From contig JAEDAG010000008.1 in assembly GCA_017309015.1 (NCBI GenBank), forward strand, positions 1 to 64,000: a stretch of DNA of 64,000 nt. The letters run 5' to 3'. Source of the stretch: Faecalicatena absiana (GTDB lineage: Bacteria; Bacillota; Bacilli; Lactobacillales; Lactobacillaceae). The position numbers and the translations under genes are program-made. Each line of letters opens with the position of its first letter. Position 1 is the first letter of the stretch. Positions 25,262-64,000 of the stretch are shown here, in pieces. A model generated the notes under the pieces. That model worked only from the letters and a program-made list of their open reading frames with translations, ran no database searches and was not told where the DNA came from.

Positions 25262-25366
25262 ATGTTGGCTGACGAGTCGAGAAAAACGCATGGTGCTTAT
25301 TTTGAGATAGAGGGCATCCGGCTTAACTGCCAGACGCGGGAAGCGTCGATGCTGACACACCCTTGA
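25262..25366 (+). CDS. 34-codon open frame with a strong ribosome site
   Basis: MLADESRKTHGAYFEIEGIR then LNCQTREASMLTHP. The ATG has GGAGG seven bases upstream, better than many real genes here, yet the frame is very short. It could be the start of a truncated gene or a small protein. The stretch from here to the terminator at 25433 shows nothing else I can assign. Confidence 0.35.
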   Translation: MLADESRKTHGAYFEIEGIRLNCQTREASMLTHP

Positions 25367-25432
25367 TGTGAACGAGAAGGAGTCACGGCCGTCTATGTCG
25401 TACTGATTTTGGACAATTCGGCCGCCTTGATA

Positions 25433-55241: not shown

Positions 55242-55314
55242 GCTGACTTAGCTCAGTTGGCAGAGCACTTCACTAGTAATGAAGGGGTCGGAGGTTCGAA
55301 TCCTCTAGTCAGCA
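55242..55314 (+). tRNA. tRNA-Thr, anticodon AGT, copy 1
   Basis: A full cloverleaf: acceptor GCTGACT/AGTCAGC, D arm GCTC/GAGC, anticodon stem CTTCA/TGAAG with loop CTAGTAA (anticodon AGT), T arm GGAGG/CCTCT with TTCGAAT, discriminator A. CCA is not encoded. The upstream GGTTAAATTAATAA with TTGCAA 18 bases before is a likely promoter and is repeated before copy 2. Confidence 0.93.
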
Positions 55315-56360: not shown

Positions 56361-56433
56361 GCTGACTTAGCTCAGTTGGCAGAGCACTTCACTAGTAATG
56401 AAGGGGTCGGAGGTTCGAATCCTCTAGTCAGCA
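56361..56433 (+). tRNA. tRNA-Thr, anticodon AGT, copy 2
   Basis: Identical to copy 1 over all 73 bases. The promoter-like GGTTAAATTAATAA upstream is also conserved, and a terminator follows within 10 bases. Confidence 0.93.
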
Positions 56434-56617: not shown

Positions 56618-57075
56618 ATGCTGAAAGAAGGTGCAACTCATATAGTTAAATACGAATTCAGGAATGATGAGCCAGATATCATCCATGGACGAGGCTACGT
56701 ATACAAACTCAATTACCACATCGTCTGGTGTACCAAGTATCGCAATCAAGCCTTGGCTAATCCGATTATTGTCGATTCACTCAAGGACAAGATCCTGCAG
56801 ATCTGCCGTGAGAATGAGTATACTGTCAAGGCTCTGGAAATAATGCCAACTCACGTGCATATTCTGCTGTCTGCCAAACCCAAAGAGAGCGTGACAAATA
56901 TCGTCAAGAAGCTCAAAGGCATTACGGCCAAGTGGCTTTTTGAAAAGTATCCGGAAACGATGAAGGAATACTTCTGGGGTGGTCACCGAGCTATTACGCA
57001 GGAAGCATTGGAGTGACAACCGAAGCTGTCGTCAAGAAATACATTGAGATGCAATGGAATAGACCGTTTCACTAA
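56618..57075 (+). pseudogene. tnpA: TnpA (Y1 HUH transposase), inactivated, IS605 copy 3
   Basis: This copy keeps an ATG (MLKEGATHIVKYEFRNDEPD) and is open for 132 codons to FWGGHRAITQEALE, lacking the Tyr-bearing end, which follows out of frame to 57075. HUH is present in MPTHVHILLS. Confidence 0.85.
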
Positions 57076-57097
57076 ACGCTAGAAAGGAGGAAGCGAC

Positions 57098-58276
57098 ATG
57101 GCAATACGCAAGCGCAAGTCAGATCTGCCGGAATATGGAGTAAAAATCAGACTGTACCCGACTCTCGTACAACAAGCCAAACTTAGACAGTTCTTTGGCA
57201 ATGACCGCTTCCTCTGGAATCAGCTTGTCAGCCTCTATCAGGAACGCTACAAGAACAACAAGAAATCAAAATTGTTAACGGAATTCGATCTTAACAATCT
57301 GCTTCCCGTTTTAAAGAACGAATATCCATTCCTCAAGGCAAGCGACAGCTCCAGCTTCCAAATCGTGACCAAGAACATCAGCGATGCCTGGGAGGCGTTC
57401 TTTGCCGGAACGAGGCGCAAGCCCCGCTTCCACTCAAAGCACAGCGCCAAGCAGTCATATACTGGCAAATCGTCCGGCATCCGGATCATGGGCAAAAGAA
57501 ACATGTTCCTGCCGAAGCTGAGAAGAGTCAGATCATCGAAAACCGGCGTCATCGACGGCAAGATCAAGCGCTACACGATCAGCGTCGATGCTTGCGGGCG
57601 CTACTGGCTTTCTATCATTGTGGAGAAAAAGACCGCCTTCCTGCCAAAGACTGGCAAGGCGGTTGGCATTGACGTGGGGCTGACGCACTTGGCCATCCTG
57701 TCAGACGGCAGAAAGTTTGACAAGTTCTCATCAGATTACTGCGAGAAACAAGCAGAAATCTGGCAGAGCAAGTCATCCAAGCGCCGTCATTTGGCTGTGG
57801 TTAAGTCGCAGCAGGACGCCAACAGGAAGGCTCTTGACGCAAAAAGCCTGTCTGACTATCGCAACTGGCAGAAAGCCAATGTCGCCAAAAACCGCTATAT
57901 GAGCCGCATCACGAATCAGCGCGATGACTATCTGCACAAGATCACGGATCAGCTTGTGAGGGAATACGATGTTATCGTCATTGAAGATCTCAAGATCAAG
58001 AACATGACGAAGAATCACCACCTTGCCCGCTCAATTCTGCGCCAAAGCTGGGGCAGATTTCGTGACATGCTGGAATACAAATGCAAGAAGTACGGAAAGA
58101 TCCTCATTAAGGTCAATCCAGCATACACCAGCCGAATCTGCTCAAAATGCGGCAAGGATACGGGCAAGAAGCCACTGTCAGTGCGGGAATGGGACTGCCC
58201 ATTCTGCAAGGCACATCATGACCGTGACGTCAATGCATCAATCAATATTTTGCTTAAAGGACTTGCCCAGCTCTGA
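57098..58276 (+). CDS. tnpB: TnpB RNA-guided nuclease, IS605 copy 3
   Basis: 392 residues, intact catalytic triad (GIDVGL, VIEDL, HDRDVNAS) and zinc ribbon (CSKCG/CPFC). Small differences from the other copies lie mainly in the central region near residues 245-255. Confidence 0.92.
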   Translation: MAIRKRKSDLPEYGVKIRLYPTLVQQAKLRQFFGNDRFLWNQLVSLYQERYKNNKKSKLLTEFDLNNLLPVLKNEYPFLKASDSSSFQIVTKNISDAWEAFFAGTRRKPRFHSKHSAKQSYTGKSSGIRIMGKRNMFLPKLRRVRSSKTGVIDGKIKRYTISVDACGRYWLSIIVEKKTAFLPKTGKAVGIDVGLTHLAILSDGRKFDKFSSDYCEKQAEIWQSKSSKRRHLAVVKSQQDANRKALDAKSLSDYRNWQKANVAKNRYMSRITNQRDDYLHKITDQLVREYDVIVIEDLKIKNMTKNHHLARSILRQSWGRFRDMLEYKCKKYGKILIKVNPAYTSRICSKCGKDTGKKPLSVREWDCPFCKAHHDRDVNASINILLKGLAQL

Positions 58277-59017: not shown

Positions 59018-59701
59018 ATGAAAAGAAACAAGATTTTAGCTTCAGTTTCAACGGCTGCTTTAGCCTTGGGAATGTTGACAGTCATTGGTGAAAAGCAAGT
59101 CAATGCCGCGGACAATGATGATCCCGCTGACATCGTAACGGTTGTGAACTATACTCCGGCTAAGTCAGCCGTCACTGCCGTTAAAACCAGCTATAACGCT
59201 AAGACCAAGTCATTGACGATCACTGGCAAGGCTAAAGGCGCAAGCAAGGTGGCTGTCAGCTACAATGCCAAGGCTCTCAAGCCAGCTAAGGTGACCAAGA
59301 AGGGCCAATTCAAGACGACCGTCAAGTTCATCGGCTACAAGAACTTCTCTCTTACTGGCTTAAATGCCAAGGGAAAGGCAGTAACCAAGGCTTACGTTTT
59401 GACCAAGGACAGTTACGCTGCCGCTAAGCCAACCCTGCTCAAGGCTAACCGGTCCAAGAAAGGGCTGACCTTCACGACCGACGCCAAGAAGAAGACGACT
59501 TTGAACTTCTACTACAAGAACAAGCTGGTCAAGAAGGCCAAGCTGACCAAGGACAAGCAAAAGGTCTTCTTCTCAGCCAAGTCACTGAAGGGCAAGAAGG
59601 GGAACTTCAAGGTCGTTGCCTCAGCCGCTGGCAAGAAGAGCAGCCAAGCTGCCCAATTCAAGATCATCGGCGTTGGCCAGACAACCGTAACCAACTACTA
59701 A
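59018..59701 (+). CDS. Secreted Lys-rich surface protein
   Basis: A 227-residue protein with a signal peptide (MKRNKILASVSTAALALGML, cut near VNAADN) and repeated beta-type segments rich in Lys and Ala (TGKAKGASKVAVSYNAKALK; LNAKGKAVTKAYV). It resembles the bacterial Ig-like or SLAP-type wall-associated proteins of lactobacilli. Its high positive charge suggests binding to wall polymers. GGAGG precedes the ATG. Function unknown. Confidence 0.7.
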   Translation: MKRNKILASVSTAALALGMLTVIGEKQVNAADNDDPADIVTVVNYTPAKSAVTAVKTSYNAKTKSLTITGKAKGASKVAVSYNAKALKPAKVTKKGQFKTTVKFIGYKNFSLTGLNAKGKAVTKAYVLTKDSYAAAKPTLLKANRSKKGLTFTTDAKKKTTLNFYYKNKLVKKAKLTKDKQKVFFSAKSLKGKKGNFKVVASAAGKKSSQAAQFKIIGVGQTTVTNY

Positions 59702-60097: not shown

Positions 60098-60421
60098 TTA
60101 TAAAGCTTTGTTGAGCTCCGGATGATCAATCAAAAACGTGAGATTCATCATCGCATTTCTGTCCCGATCTACGACTTTCTTGTAGTTCGGGCATTTTTCG
60201 TTGTAGCACACATACTCATCGTGCTTGGTGCCATGCTTCTTGTTGCCGTAAAGGGTGATCTTTTCATCGCCTTTCTTGACGTTGCCGCACGCTGCACAGC
60301 GCTGAATTGACGGATACAGTCTGTCCGCCATGACAAGCTCGCAGCCATGCCACTTGCACTTGTACTCAAGAATCGACTTAAAGCGACCAAACATGGCACG
60401 ATGTACGCCTTTTGAAATGTA
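60098..60421 (-). pseudogene. TnpB C-terminal fragment (different lineage)
   Basis: Reads MFGRFKSILEYKCKWHGCEL, then the zinc ribbon CAACGN ... CYNEKCPNY and the last catalytic motif VDRDRNAMMNL, ending ELNKAL. This is the last third of a TnpB unlike the three IS605 copies. The first two catalytic motifs are missing. Confidence 0.82.
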
Positions 60422-60425
60422 GAAG

Positions 60426-60469
60426 AAAAAGTGCTGGATGCTTGCTCTCGAGGTCATCCAACACTTTTT
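60426..60469 (-). terminator. Terminator of the B12 operon
   Basis: AAAAAGTGCTGGATG pairs with CATCCAACACTTTTT around 13 bases. It follows the PduO stop. Confidence 0.8.
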
Positions 60470-60480
60470 AATTTGCGAGC

Positions 60481-61044
60481 TTATTTTTTCGGACGCCGCC
60501 GCGGCCGGGCTGGCTTGCTCTTGACGTCAGCTACGCCCTCCAAAAGGTTGGCGTAGCGGGCCATCACGAACAGGTAGTCTGACAGGCGGTTCGGGTACTT
60601 GAGGCTGTCACTCTTGACCTCCCCGCTTTCGTCCGCGTACAGCACGCAGACCCGTTCGCTGGTCCGGGCCAGTGCCCGGGCATACTGGAGGTTGGCGCTG
60701 GTCTTTGACCCGCCGGGCAGGATAAATTCATTCATTTCCGGCAGTTCTTCCGTCCAGGCATCGATTTGCTCTTCCATGTAAGTCACTTCAGCCGAAGTAA
60801 TCGTATGGTGCCGCTTGACCACCAGGTCAGCCTGCAATTCATACATTTCCCGCTCCAGCTTGATCAGCTTTTCTTCCAGGCCCTGGCAGGCCGGAGAAAG
60901 GTTGGCCACCGTAACCCCCAGCCAGGACTGCAGCTCATCGAGAGCTCCCAGTGTCTGGATCTGCGGGTCGTATTTGGCGACCATCTTGCCGGTAACCTGC
61001 TTGGTTTTCCCCTGGTCGCCGACTTTAGTGTAGATTTTGAGCAT
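60481..61044 (-). CDS. pduO: PduO-type cob(I)alamin adenosyltransferase
   Basis: A 187-residue enzyme that converts cob(I)alamin and ATP to adenosylcobalamin. YTKVGDQGKTKQV is the ATP-binding N-terminal motif; FILPGGSKTSANLQYARALA and RTSERV form the second site. The end is a basic tail (ARPRRRPKK). It overlaps the S-component gene by 20 bases. It would supply the cofactor of the NrdJ reductase encoded at the head of the same operon. Confidence 0.92.
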   Translation of the reverse strand: MLKIYTKVGDQGKTKQVTGKMVAKYDPQIQTLGALDELQSWLGVTVANLSPACQGLEEKLIKLEREMYELQADLVVKRHHTITSAEVTYMEEQIDAWTEELPEMNEFILPGGSKTSANLQYARALARTSERVCVLYADESGEVKSDSLKYPNRLSDYLFVMARYANLLEGVADVKSKPARPRRRPKK

Positions 61045-61585
61045 TTTGCTTACACCCTGCTTTCTTTTTAAACCGGTCCAGGCCCAAAATCAATGGCAGA
61101 TAAAGGATAGGATAAAAGGCCAAGTTGCCGGCGACATGATACAAGTCAAAGGTCAGGCCGCTGACCCAGTAGGCGATAAAGGCAGCCCAGCCGCCCCAGC
61201 CAGCCATGCCCAGGCTGACGAAGAAGCCGTATTCCAGGCCCAGAAAGCCGGCCAGGAGCTCCTGCAGCCAGAAGAATTTCCGGCTTTTCAGTGGCAAAAG
61301 TCTGGCAAATAGCGCTACGGTCAAGGCGCAGGCCGCGTAGGCAAAGATCTGCGGCAAGGTCCAAATGCCAAAGCCCAGGAAGATGTTGGAGATCACCATG
61401 ACCAAAATGGCTAGGAGAATCCCTGTCCCTGCCCCCAGTTCCAGCGTGGCCAGCATGATAATATCGGTCACTGGCTGGACATTGGGGATATCGATAATTT
61501 TGAAGATCCGCAAAACCACGCACATCGCCGTTAGCAGGGCGAGCAGGGTCAGCCTTTGCAGTTGGTAGCGTTCCTTGGTCTGCAT
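61025..61585 (-). CDS. cbrT: ECF transporter S component, cobalamin type (CbrT-like)
   Basis: A 186-residue, six-helix S component: RLTLLALLTAMCVVLRIFKI begins helix 1, and FLGFGIWTLPQIFAYAACAL is the later helix pair. It needs the shared EcfA/EcfA'/EcfT module, encoded elsewhere. An ECF-CbrT complex from this species has been described as a cobalamin and cobinamide importer; position between a B12-type surface protein, PduO and NrdJ makes this gene the obvious candidate. It starts one base after the DUF4430 stop (TAA G ATG) and overlaps pduO. Confidence 0.85.
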   Translation of the reverse strand: MQTKERYQLQRLTLLALLTAMCVVLRIFKIIDIPNVQPVTDIIMLATLELGAGTGILLAILVMVISNIFLGFGIWTLPQIFAYAACALTVALFARLLPLKSRKFFWLQELLAGFLGLEYGFFVSLGMAGWGGWAAFIAYWVSGLTFDLYHVAGNLAFYPILYLPLILGLDRFKKKAGCKQNAQNLH

Positions 61586-61586
61586 C

Positions 61587-62051
61587 TTAGTATTGCTTCA
61601 AAGTGAAGACAACCTTGGACTTGTTCTTAGTCAGCTTTTGCTTGTTAGCAGCCACGCTGGCCAGCTTGCCGTCAACCGTGTAAGTCCAGTAGCGCTTCTT
61701 CTTTTGGTTGCCCAGGCCATTGATCTTAGTGATGAAGACGCCGTATGAAGATTTAGTATAGTTAACCTTCCAGGCCTTCTTCAAAACAGTGAAGACGCTC
61801 GTCCCCTTCTTGACCTTGAAAGTCTTCTTAGCCAGGGCTCGCTTGTTCTTGGCCTTGGTCGTGTCCTTCAAAGTGTAGGTCACGCTGATTTGCTTAGCCT
61901 TGGCCTTCTTAGTAGTCTTCTTTTTAGTGGTCTTCTTGGTCTTTCTAGTGGTCTTAGCGGCTTGTACATTTTGCTCTTGGACTGGCTGGTTGGCAAAAAG
62001 GCCCACGAAGGCTGCCAAGGCAACTACAACTGTTAAAATCTTCTTTTTCAT
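61587..62051 (-). CDS. Secreted DUF4430 protein (transcobalamin C-terminal-like), possible B12-binding surface protein
   Basis: A 154-residue protein. Signal peptide (MKKKILTVVVALAAFVGLFA, cut near VQAA), a Lys/Thr-rich wall-binding linker (KKTTKKKTTKKAKAK), then about 95 residues matching DUF4430: KGTSVFTVLKKAWKV, YGVFITKINGLGNQKKKRYW and TYTVDGKLA. DUF4430 shares the fold of the small C-terminal domain of transcobalamin and intrinsic factor. There is no LPXTG anchor; the cationic linker may bind wall polymers. It is one base from cbrT, so co-made with the transporter. Confidence 0.8.
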   Translation of the reverse strand: MKKKILTVVVALAAFVGLFANQPVQEQNVQAAKTTRKTKKTTKKKTTKKAKAKQISVTYTLKDTTKAKNKRALAKKTFKVKKGTSVFTVLKKAWKVNYTKSSYGVFITKINGLGNQKKKRYWTYTVDGKLASVAANKQKLTKNKSKVVFTLKQY

Positions 62052-62114
62052 TTTTGTTTCTCCCGTTTTTTATTTCTGTTTTGTTTTTTGTCTTTTATTT
62101 CTAGTTTCCCTGCC

Positions 62115-64000
62115 TTACTTAACCGGGCAGGCGCCGCCTTCACAGTCAGTCTGGTCGACCAGTTCCAGGTCCTTGACGTCGCTGTTCAGCTGGCTGAAGA
62201 CTTCTTCCACGTCGCCGGTGATTTCCTGGCTGCGCTTTTCGTAAGTCTCCTTATCGATCGGTTCCTTTGGCGCTTGCTGCAGGGAACCGCCGAAGTATGG
62301 CAGAAGCGAGGTTGACTTGGTGATAAAGCGGTACTGGCGGAGCAAGGATTCAACCTGACCTGCTTCGGAATCCTGGAAAGTAATCGTGCAGGAAACCGCG
62401 TTGTCCGACCAGTAAGTCTGCAAGAAGGCCTGAGTGGCAAACTGTTCCGCGATTGAAACCGTGCCAGCTGAGGCAAAGTTAGGGTTGTCCGCCCCCACCG
62501 CCTTGATCGGGAATTCCACGCAGGTCGTGTTTTCCGTGTAGATATCAGCTTCCGTCCGGTAGCCGCAGGCCTTCAAGGCTGGCAAAAGCGGGTCAGAATC
62601 CTGGAAACGGATCCGCTGGATCAAGTAAGCCCCGTAGTGGAAGTGCATGCCTTCACTGGCCCCGGCCAGCTTGGCCACCGTGCCTGACGGCTTGACCGTG
62701 GTGTGCTTGATTGATTCATTGCAGCCCAAAGTCTTGCTGTAATCCTGGTCAGCCTTGACCACGACCTTGTAAAGGTGGTCAACCGCCTTGATGGCCCGCT
62801 TGTCGTAGACTGGCACCTTGATGGCTTCATGGGTTTCCGGGTCAAAGTCATCCTTGAAGCCGGTAACCACCCGGTTGCCCAGTCTGGTCAAAAGCCAGTC
62901 CTGGATCCCGGACATGGAGATCCCGATCCGGCGGTTCTTTTGAATTATTTCCCGGGAAATTTCCCAGTCATAAGAACTAAAGGTTACCCGCTTGGCGTAA
63001 CGGGCCGCTAAGGCAAAGACTTCCTGCAGGTCCCAACCCTGTTCTTCCGCGATCAACGGGAAGACTTCAAAGAGGTTGCAAGGTTCCCCGTTGGCCAGGG
63101 AGATCTCCCCGCAAGGGTTAGTCCCTTCCACGTCGCCGTCAATTCCAGCCTGGTAGCCATCAACGATCCGGCCATAGTTCTTGGACAGGTCCAGGTTCAC
63201 AATCCCCGGTTCACCGTTTTCACGGATCCCGGCAGCGATTGGCTGGTAGCCGCTGAAGGCTGAATCAACTGCCACGCTGTTGTTGGATGCCCAGCGGTGA
63301 TGCATCAGCTTCTCCTGGTCCTGCTTCATGGAAATGAAGTCTTGGTCATCGTTTGAACCCAGGGCCAGTTCCGCTGACCGGCGGACATTGCCGGCTACGA
63401 CTGCCTTGCCGATCAAGTTGCAAATGTCAGTGGCATCAACCGCTGAAAGGCGGCCGCCAGCCTTGCTGTTCAAAACTTTGTTGATGTCCAGCAGCATGGA
63501 GATCAAGGGCATTGGGCCGGAAGCCGTGCCGCCGAAGCCATGAATCTCTGCCCCATAAGGCCGGATGTCAGACAAGTCCAGGATCAGCTTTTGTTTGCGG
63601 TCCGGGTTAGTCTGGGCAAAGTGGAGGTCAATCAAGAGGGCATTGGCCAAAACCCAGCCTTCCCGGGTGTCCGGCAGGCGGTAGTAGATGCTGTCAGCAT
63701 CTTGAACCAATTCATTCTTGCCGACGGCCCCGACCTTGATGGAAGCATCGTAGGATTCACTGGTCTCATCGATCACCAGCTGCAGGTCGATATCAAAGTC
63801 GACCCGGGGGATCTGGCTGATGTTGGATCTGGCAACTGAGAAGCCGACCCCGCCCCCCTTCATTAATTCGTCAAAGAGGAAGGAGAAAGGCATGGAGACG
63901 GCCTTTTCCTGCTTGCTAAGATAGCTGGGCACGATCTTGCTGTCCCCGTACTTCTGCGGGCGGATAGCCACAAACCAGCAGTTGTTCAAGGAATCCCCGG
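62115..64000 (-). CDS. nrdJ: Adenosylcobalamin-dependent ribonucleoside-triphosphate reductase (class II), 5' end outside window
   Basis: The visible 628 codons run from GDSLNNCWFVAIRPQ to the stop; about 110 N-terminal residues lie beyond base 64000. It makes dNTPs from NTPs using adenosylcobalamin. NPCGEISL holds the thiyl-radical Cys (408 in the L. leichmannii enzyme); GEPCNLF and NNCWF hold the redox pair (419 and 119); the C-terminal DCEGGACPVK carries the shuttle pair (731 and 736). The sequence is, as far as I recall, nearly identical to that enzyme. It heads the B12 operon; only 63 bases and no terminator separate it from the DUF4430 gene. Confidence 0.95.
   Translation of the reverse strand, partial: GDSLNNCWFVAIRPQKYGDSKIVPSYLSKQEKAVSMPFSFLFDELMKGGGVGFSVARSNISQIPRVDFDIDLQLVIDETSESYDASIKVGAVGKNELVQDADSIYYRLPDTREGWVLANALLIDLHFAQTNPDRKQKLILDLSDIRPYGAEIHGFGGTASGPMPLISMLLDINKVLNSKAGGRLSAVDATDICNLIGKAVVAGNVRRSAELALGSNDDQDFISMKQDQEKLMHHRWASNNSVAVDSAFSGYQPIAAGIRENGEPGIVNLDLSKNYGRIVDGYQAGIDGDVEGTNPCGEISLANGEPCNLFEVFPLIAEEQGWDLQEVFALAARYAKRVTFSSYDWEISREIIQKNRRIGISMSGIQDWLLTRLGNRVVTGFKDDFDPETHEAIKVPVYDKRAIKAVDHLYKVVVKADQDYSKTLGCNESIKHTTVKPSGTVAKLAGASEGMHFHYGAYLIQRIRFQDSDPLLPALKACGYRTEADIYTENTTCVEFPIKAVGADNPNFASAGTVSIAEQFATQAFLQTYWSDNAVSCTITFQDSEAGQVESLLRQYRFITKSTSLLPYFGGSLQQAPKEPIDKETYEKRSQEITGDVEEVFSQLNSDVKDLELVDQTDCEGGACPVK

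Follow-up and report, generated by a model that had tools for sequence, protein, structure and literature searches.

CbrS, a predicted secreted DUF4430 protein encoded beside the cobalamin S component CbrT, as a candidate corrinoid-capture domain with a transcobalamin beta-domain fold

The window analyzed here is a 64,000-nucleotide stretch of contig JAEDAG010000008.1 (assembly GCA_017309015.1, Faecalicatena absiana, placed by GTDB in the Lactobacillaceae), and it carries a cluster of four vitamin B12 genes at positions 60481-64000 on the minus strand. In order of transcription these are nrdJ, cbrS, cbrT, and pduO. The second gene, cbrS, which encodes a DUF4430 protein, is the subject of this work, and the genes are listed below together with the segments of CbrS.

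62115..64000 in the window, minus strand: nrdJ, adenosylcobalamin-dependent ribonucleoside-triphosphate reductase (TIGR02505, 890.5 bits)
61587..62051, minus strand: cbrS, predicted secreted DUF4430 protein of 154 residues (PF14478, 74.2 bits; gathering cut-off 23.8)
61959..62051, minus strand: Sec-type signal peptide, CbrS residues 1-31, predicted by reading the sequence, with cleavage likely after VQA31
61893..61958, minus strand: Lys/Thr-rich linker, CbrS residues 32-53, of low predicted local distance difference test (pLDDT) score; proposed electrostatic contact with anionic wall polymers
61590..61892, minus strand: beta-grasp domain of the transcobalamin beta-domain type, CbrS residues 54-154, predicted from an AlphaFold2 model and a fold search
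61734..61748, minus strand: SYGVF loop, CbrS residues 102-106, aligned with SWGPY of haptocorrin
61025..61585, minus strand: cbrT, S component of a cobalamin energy-coupling factor (ECF) transporter (PF12822, 53.3 bits; cut-off 30.7)
60481..61044, minus strand: pduO, ATP:cob(I)alamin adenosyltransferase (PF01923, 162.6 bits; TIGR00636, 158.9 bits)

The end of nrdJ lies 63 bases from cbrS, cbrS and cbrT are separated by 1 base, and cbrT overlaps pduO by 20 bases. Coordinates and family profiles agree with the first-pass annotation of this DNA, which had placed four B12 genes on one strand with this 1-base gap and 20-base overlap. Its claim that no terminator lies between the genes also held, as the terminator scan found no terminator-like site in the nrdJ-cbrS gap, and the region scanned held three sites versus 6.6 expected by chance. 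The 5' end of nrdJ is at contig position 64334, beyond the window, where the full open reading frame (ORF) was read in locus L054; a TTG at 63989 was ruled out as the start because the ORF extends to that position. An NrdR-like box is present upstream of nrdJ at 8404-8419 of L054 (contig 64403-64418), as a single site with two mismatches to the consensus used and 0.03 such sites expected. As a weaker lead, this box suggests that the B12 genes are switched together with nucleotide reduction. The class III ribonucleotide reductase, NrdD, is oxygen-sensitive. One match to NrdD was found in the genome, and there was no match to PF00268, the small subunit of the class I enzyme. Because PF00268 had no match and NrdD is sensitive to oxygen, NrdJ is the sole candidate found for deoxynucleotide synthesis in air, which fits the B12 auxotrophy of Lactobacillus delbrueckii cited in passages of PMC5997447.

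The CbrT encoded in the window matches crystallized CbrT (6fnp_A) with a phmmer E value of 1.2e-113, and 5 of 182 residues differ by manual count in the printed alignment. CbrT was reportedly predicted by Rodionov in 2009. Passages of Santos et al. 2018 (PMC5997447) describe ECF-CbrT of L. delbrueckii, for which B12 transport was shown experimentally and which has the gene order of the window and a near-identical CbrT. Because these passages name the L. delbrueckii cluster nrdJ-cbrS-cbrT-pduO, the DUF4430 gene of the window is cbrS. In the main text of PMC5997447 the word cbrS occurs once, in the Discussion, and CbrS itself is not a subject of its passages. In excerpts of PMC9963975, a 14.3-kDa protein of L. 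rhamnosus is tabled as an 'additional lipoprotein component of putative cobalamin ECF transporter', and elsewhere an L. rhamnosus DUF4430 protein is said to be encoded near rtpR; the 14.3-kDa lipoprotein is presumed to be the counterpart of CbrS. ECF transporters, as described in a passage of PMC7299338, have a membrane S component in place of an extracellular binding protein.

CbrS is strongly basic. Residues 32-55 carry a net charge of +12, the whole precursor has a net charge of +38 and an isoelectric point of 10.7, and the protein is both more positive and longer than each of the 45 homologues tabled. It contains no Cys, and a pattern search found no lipobox. Likewise, its C-terminus, VVFTLKQY, is without LPXTG, and no anchor family was present for it in the Pfam and NCBIfam tables. 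Judged from its strong positive charge alone, CbrS of the window may be retained by electrostatic binding to the wall. The lipobox pattern is present in several CbrS relatives from other species. In addition, seven Lactobacillus loci (L082-L084 and L088-L091), which we take to be from bee-associated species, carry tandem cbrS genes between nrdJ and cbrT, with the lipobox form first and the non-lipobox form second. These tandem pairs suggest that CbrS exists as a membrane form and a wall form.

A structure search with the AlphaFold2 model matched the CbrS domain to the beta domains of transcobalamin (TC), haptocorrin (HC), and intrinsic factor (IF) far above other folds. The match spans approximately residues 52-154, with 16-24% identity in the structural alignments. 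The model thus supports the earlier proposal that DUF4430 has the fold of the TC C-terminal domain, and the predicted fold of CbrS is that of the TC beta domain. The strong fold matches comprise carriers whose corresponding domain binds cobalamin, together with RUMGNA_00854 of Ruminococcus gnavus (Protein Data Bank (PDB) entry 3u7z), labeled a 'putative metal binding protein'. Comparing CbrS with TC, IF, and HC, the fold of the beta domain is common to all, whereas the ligand contacts are kept only in part in CbrS. Moreover, the three carriers have an alpha domain, while CbrS of the window has none, being a protein of 154 residues with a single DUF4430 domain and a low-confidence, unstructured stretch at residues 1-53. 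L358 of TC presumably falls in the stretch aligned with CbrS residues 102-106. The backbone of L358 contacts the phosphate of cobalamin (PMC5599065). The alignment indicates that relatives with a short loop probably share the fold of the window CbrS, the window protein being the one with a good model; the homologue of L. reuteri in L103, modeled from one sequence without an alignment, reached a mean pLDDT of 55.6, too poor for a fold search.

The cbrS gene nearly always adjoins a CbrT-type S component gene. DUF4430 was found in 28 and CbrT in 29 of the 61 Lactobacillus genomes searched, and DUF4430 was located upstream of CbrT, on the same strand and at most 60 bp away, at 29 of 30 CbrT loci (28 genomes). 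The exception, G054, has a 72-residue fragment as its CbrT match and lacks DUF4430. Viewed from the other gene, 34 of 36 Lactobacillus DUF4430 matches lie less than 1 kb from CbrT, and the remaining two are extra copies in G020. Matches to NrdJ, DUF4430, CbrT, and PduO occur together in 27 of 30 Lactobacillus loci, the exceptions being L019, L027, and L028; the 30 four-gene loci include that of the window, and L029 and L030 overlap L003 and L002.

A similar linkage is present across the family. Among 251 Lactobacillaceae genomes, 66 have DUF4430, 46 have CbrT at E <= 1e-10, and 49 have a TIGR02505 match, which is above the cut-off in 46. At CbrT loci of at least 36% identity, DUF4430 is at most 60 bp away in 28 of 31 cases (30 genomes, all of which have DUF4430), and at weaker CbrT-like loci (26-35% identity) it is within 5 kb in 14 of 16. 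The linkage P values are 5e-18 for the genus and 9e-21 for the family, ignoring the relatedness of the genomes. The spacing between the two genes is -1 to 9 bases in 26 of the 28 named loci with DUF4430 directly before CbrT. Six named Limosilactobacillus loci (L092, L093, L097, L099, L103, and L110) hold the cbrS-cbrT pair with no NrdJ match in the stretches examined, and L092 alone has a weak PduO match, approximately 4 kb away. Because the pair occurs without an NrdJ match at these loci, the bond of cbrS is to CbrT. An alternative that we consider unlikely is that CbrS acts on CbrT as a partner protein without itself binding corrinoid, its beta-grasp domain docking on the outer face of CbrT to stabilize it, gate it, or act as a lid. 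Tight linkage to CbrT in particular, the narrow spacing of the genes, and poor conservation of the corrinoid-site loop all favor such a partner, but the strong fold matches apart from 3u7z bind cobalamin with this very domain, and CbrT functions in vitro without CbrS according to passages of PMC5997447.

More distant arrangements were also found. Genus g4, which is Companilactobacillus by comparison with named loci, has short DUF4430 genes without a CbrT match at E <= 1e-10, and a more remote S component is encoded at a distance of a few genes from DUF4430 in seven of eight named Companilactobacillus loci and in the archaeal contig L116. At L087 and L116, genes for a double ATP-binding cassette (ABC) ATPase and an EcfT-like protein accompany this S component, in divergent orientation to DUF4430. 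The DUF4430 protein of L116, a contig from a Methanofastidiosia metagenome-assembled genome, is acidic and has a lipobox, and its gene is divergently oriented to those for a CbiQ-like protein, an ABC ATPase, and an S component.

Beyond the family, DUF4430 was present in 121 of 398 sampled Bacillota genomes. The phylum locus sample comprised 40 hand-picked DUF4430 loci from 40 genomes, in two sets of 20 with a total of 0.50 Mb. At 35 of these loci (20/20 in the first set and 15/20 in the second), BLAST identified an S component with similarity to CbrT or to its cousins, and none was found in the stretches examined at L170, L174, L179, L182, and L187. Rfam cobalamin riboswitches were found at 28 of the 40 (13 in the first set and 15 in the second), amounting to 34 riboswitches versus 0.6 expected. 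This expectation derives from 70 riboswitches in approximately 59.3 Mb of 21 genomes, 20 of them from the phylum samples, where the count of 70 is a minimum for genomes in which scoring covered just 74 candidates and the genome sizes are rounded. For 25 of the 34 riboswitches, the first gene downstream in the same orientation encodes a DUF4430 protein or one that matches the toroid probe; one of the others has a 97-residue ORF in between, and eight are followed by another gene first. Two cobalamin riboswitches inside one DUF4430 locus were seen at L157, L168, L175, L176, L178, and L185. The first-pass annotation had staked its reading on a neighborhood link between DUF4430 and B12 genes in other genomes; the link was found at 29 of 30 Lactobacillus CbrT loci and at the 28 riboswitch loci of the phylum sample, and the reading was not refuted.

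Two further alternatives bear on the ligand and on the role of the protein. It is quite improbable, in our view, that CbrS is part of a tetrapyrrole system, with heme or a porphyrin-like ligand in place of cobalamin: other Lactobacillaceae with DUF4430 near a divergent S component of unassigned substrate speak for it, whereas the window operon holds NrdJ, PduO, and an S component proven for B12, and cobalamin riboswitches accompany DUF4430 at most of the phylum loci. The genes of the heme system of L. sakei presumably resemble those seen here. That system, reported as ECF-like (Verplaetse 2020, as cited in passages of PMC7299338 and PMC7872071), likewise favors a heme ligand. Least probable of all, and very improbable, is that CbrS is a general basic surface protein outside B12 metabolism and a passenger in the operon. 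Another basic, secreted-looking protein is encoded nearby (59018-59701), and 2 of the 40 phylum-sample DUF4430 genes stand apart from ECF genes, but a passenger fits poorly with the position of DUF4430 directly upstream of CbrT at 29 of 30 Lactobacillus CbrT loci and with the riboswitch linkage elsewhere in the phylum.

Proteins with a toroid-like sequence were found in the same phylum sample. Ten of the 40 loci encode a protein matching the 352-residue toroid-like protein of L067, which itself matches squalene-cyclase-type PDB chains (E 1.6e-4) and no Pfam family. Pfam assigns squalene-cyclase or prenyltransferase toroid domains to proteins of three loci, L161, L163, and L178. In L161, one protein unites a toroid with DUF4430 and S-layer homology domains, and the L178 protein has toroid and S-layer homology domains. 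Alongside their toroid and DUF4430 proteins with S-layer homology domains, all three loci hold a cobalamin riboswitch and ECF genes. The alpha domain of TC has six inner and six outer helices, according to a passage of PMC6257451. A profile of eight toroid-like proteins searched against the PDB returned no TC, IF, or HC among the 38 matches listed, which were mostly squalene-hopene cyclases, with weaker farnesyltransferases. The sequences therefore suggest a class of fold for the toroid-like proteins, and the profile search gives no support for their kinship with the TC alpha domain. Both halves of the animal carrier layout, toroid and beta-grasp, seem to be present in the phylum loci. We see an even chance that Bacillota widely carry a cell-surface transcobalamin, in which an alpha/alpha-toroid and a DUF4430 beta-grasp, in one protein or in adjacent ones, are anchored through S-layer homology domains, by sortase, or by a lipid and encoded, together with a dedicated ECF importer, in operons under a cobalamin riboswitch. 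The L. delbrueckii CbrS would then be a minimal beta-only version, with CbrT replacing the alpha domain.

Taking sequence and model together, CbrS is probably a secreted accessory corrinoid-capture domain of ECF-CbrT, serving in capture and hand-over. After Sec export, the strongly basic CbrS would stay in the anionic wall, while in related species a lipoprotein form would reside on the membrane. The beta-grasp domain would bind the corrinoid, and CbrT, in the role of the TC alpha domain, would receive it at the face of the membrane. Import of the corrinoid through the ECF module would follow, after which PduO would adenosylate it and NrdJ would use the cofactor.

Several observations weigh against corrinoid capture by CbrS. 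In passages of PMC5997447, ECF-CbrT transports cobalamin in proteoliposomes without CbrS, and CbrT binds cobalamin with a dissociation constant (Kd) of 9 nM. The SYGVF aromatic-Gly loop was found in none of 44 other Lactobacillaceae homologues, and a loose pattern for such a loop matched only 21 of the 71 phylum-sample DUF4430 domains; SYGVF was dropped as a conserved cobalamin-contact signature because most relatives lack the loop. Regulation of the window operon by a cobalamin riboswitch was also rejected, as neither five Lactobacillus loci nor the complete genome G000 yielded one at the gathering score. Among the 31 family CbrT loci, those of G241 and G123 and one locus of G172 do not adjoin DUF4430, and DUF4430 is absent from G078 and G074, whose CbrT-like genes are weak matches. 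Both L174 and L187 (2/40) have neither S component nor riboswitch in the stretches examined, and their neighbors have no ECF match. The cbrS gene beside CbrT is broken by an internal stop or truncation in G020 and G045, and one of two cbrS copies in G007 has a stop. In G045, whose CbrT is 96% identical, nrdJ extends into the terminal part of cbrS and the pduO gene is split, so that the cassette decays as a unit, unless the assembly is at fault.

Other features of the window are as follows.

25271-25387, plus strand: COG3610-DE RNA (RF03066, 89.4 bits)
55242-55314 and 56361-56433, plus strand: two tRNA matches with identical scores, one of them a short way upstream of the IS200/IS605-type pair
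56618-58276, plus strand: IS200/IS605-type pair, Y1_Tnp then OrfB_IS605 with a Cas12f1-like_TNB domain (family matches)
59018-59701, plus strand: secreted-looking basic protein (sequence reading)
60098-60457, minus strand: separate TnpB-like fragment, directly downstream of pduO (family match)

A longer paralogue of the 59018-59701 protein is encoded beyond the window (L054 9231-10400), with a matrixin-type (PF00413) stretch before a similar C-terminal part.

In Gram-negatives, BtuG and BtuH of Bacteroides are surface B12 proteins that serve the TonB-dependent BtuB. They resemble the proposed role of CbrS in idea, that of a surface B12 catcher feeding an importer. Our literature searches found no study of or experiment on CbrS, and those on DUF4430, transcobalamin-like Firmicutes proteins, and cobalamin riboswitches with ECF showed no such surface system in titles or abstracts. 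The initial description of such a carrier as little described stands in this respect; the cluster and the name cbrS, however, are already in print in passages of PMC5997447. What is new here is the match of CbrS to the beta-domain fold, the linkage counts with CbrT, and the phylum-wide link to S components and riboswitches; the gene cluster and its name are not new.

Extracellular catching of B12 in Gram-positives is little studied, as far as the literature searches showed, and gut and food communities are places of competition for B12 uptake. Should CbrS bind corrinoid, an extracellular binder would exist in at least one ECF family as well, and the animal B12 carriers would gain bacterial counterparts open to expression and testing. 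If true, this would also give a role to DUF4430, a domain of unknown function that nearly a third of the sampled Bacillota genomes carry (121/398).

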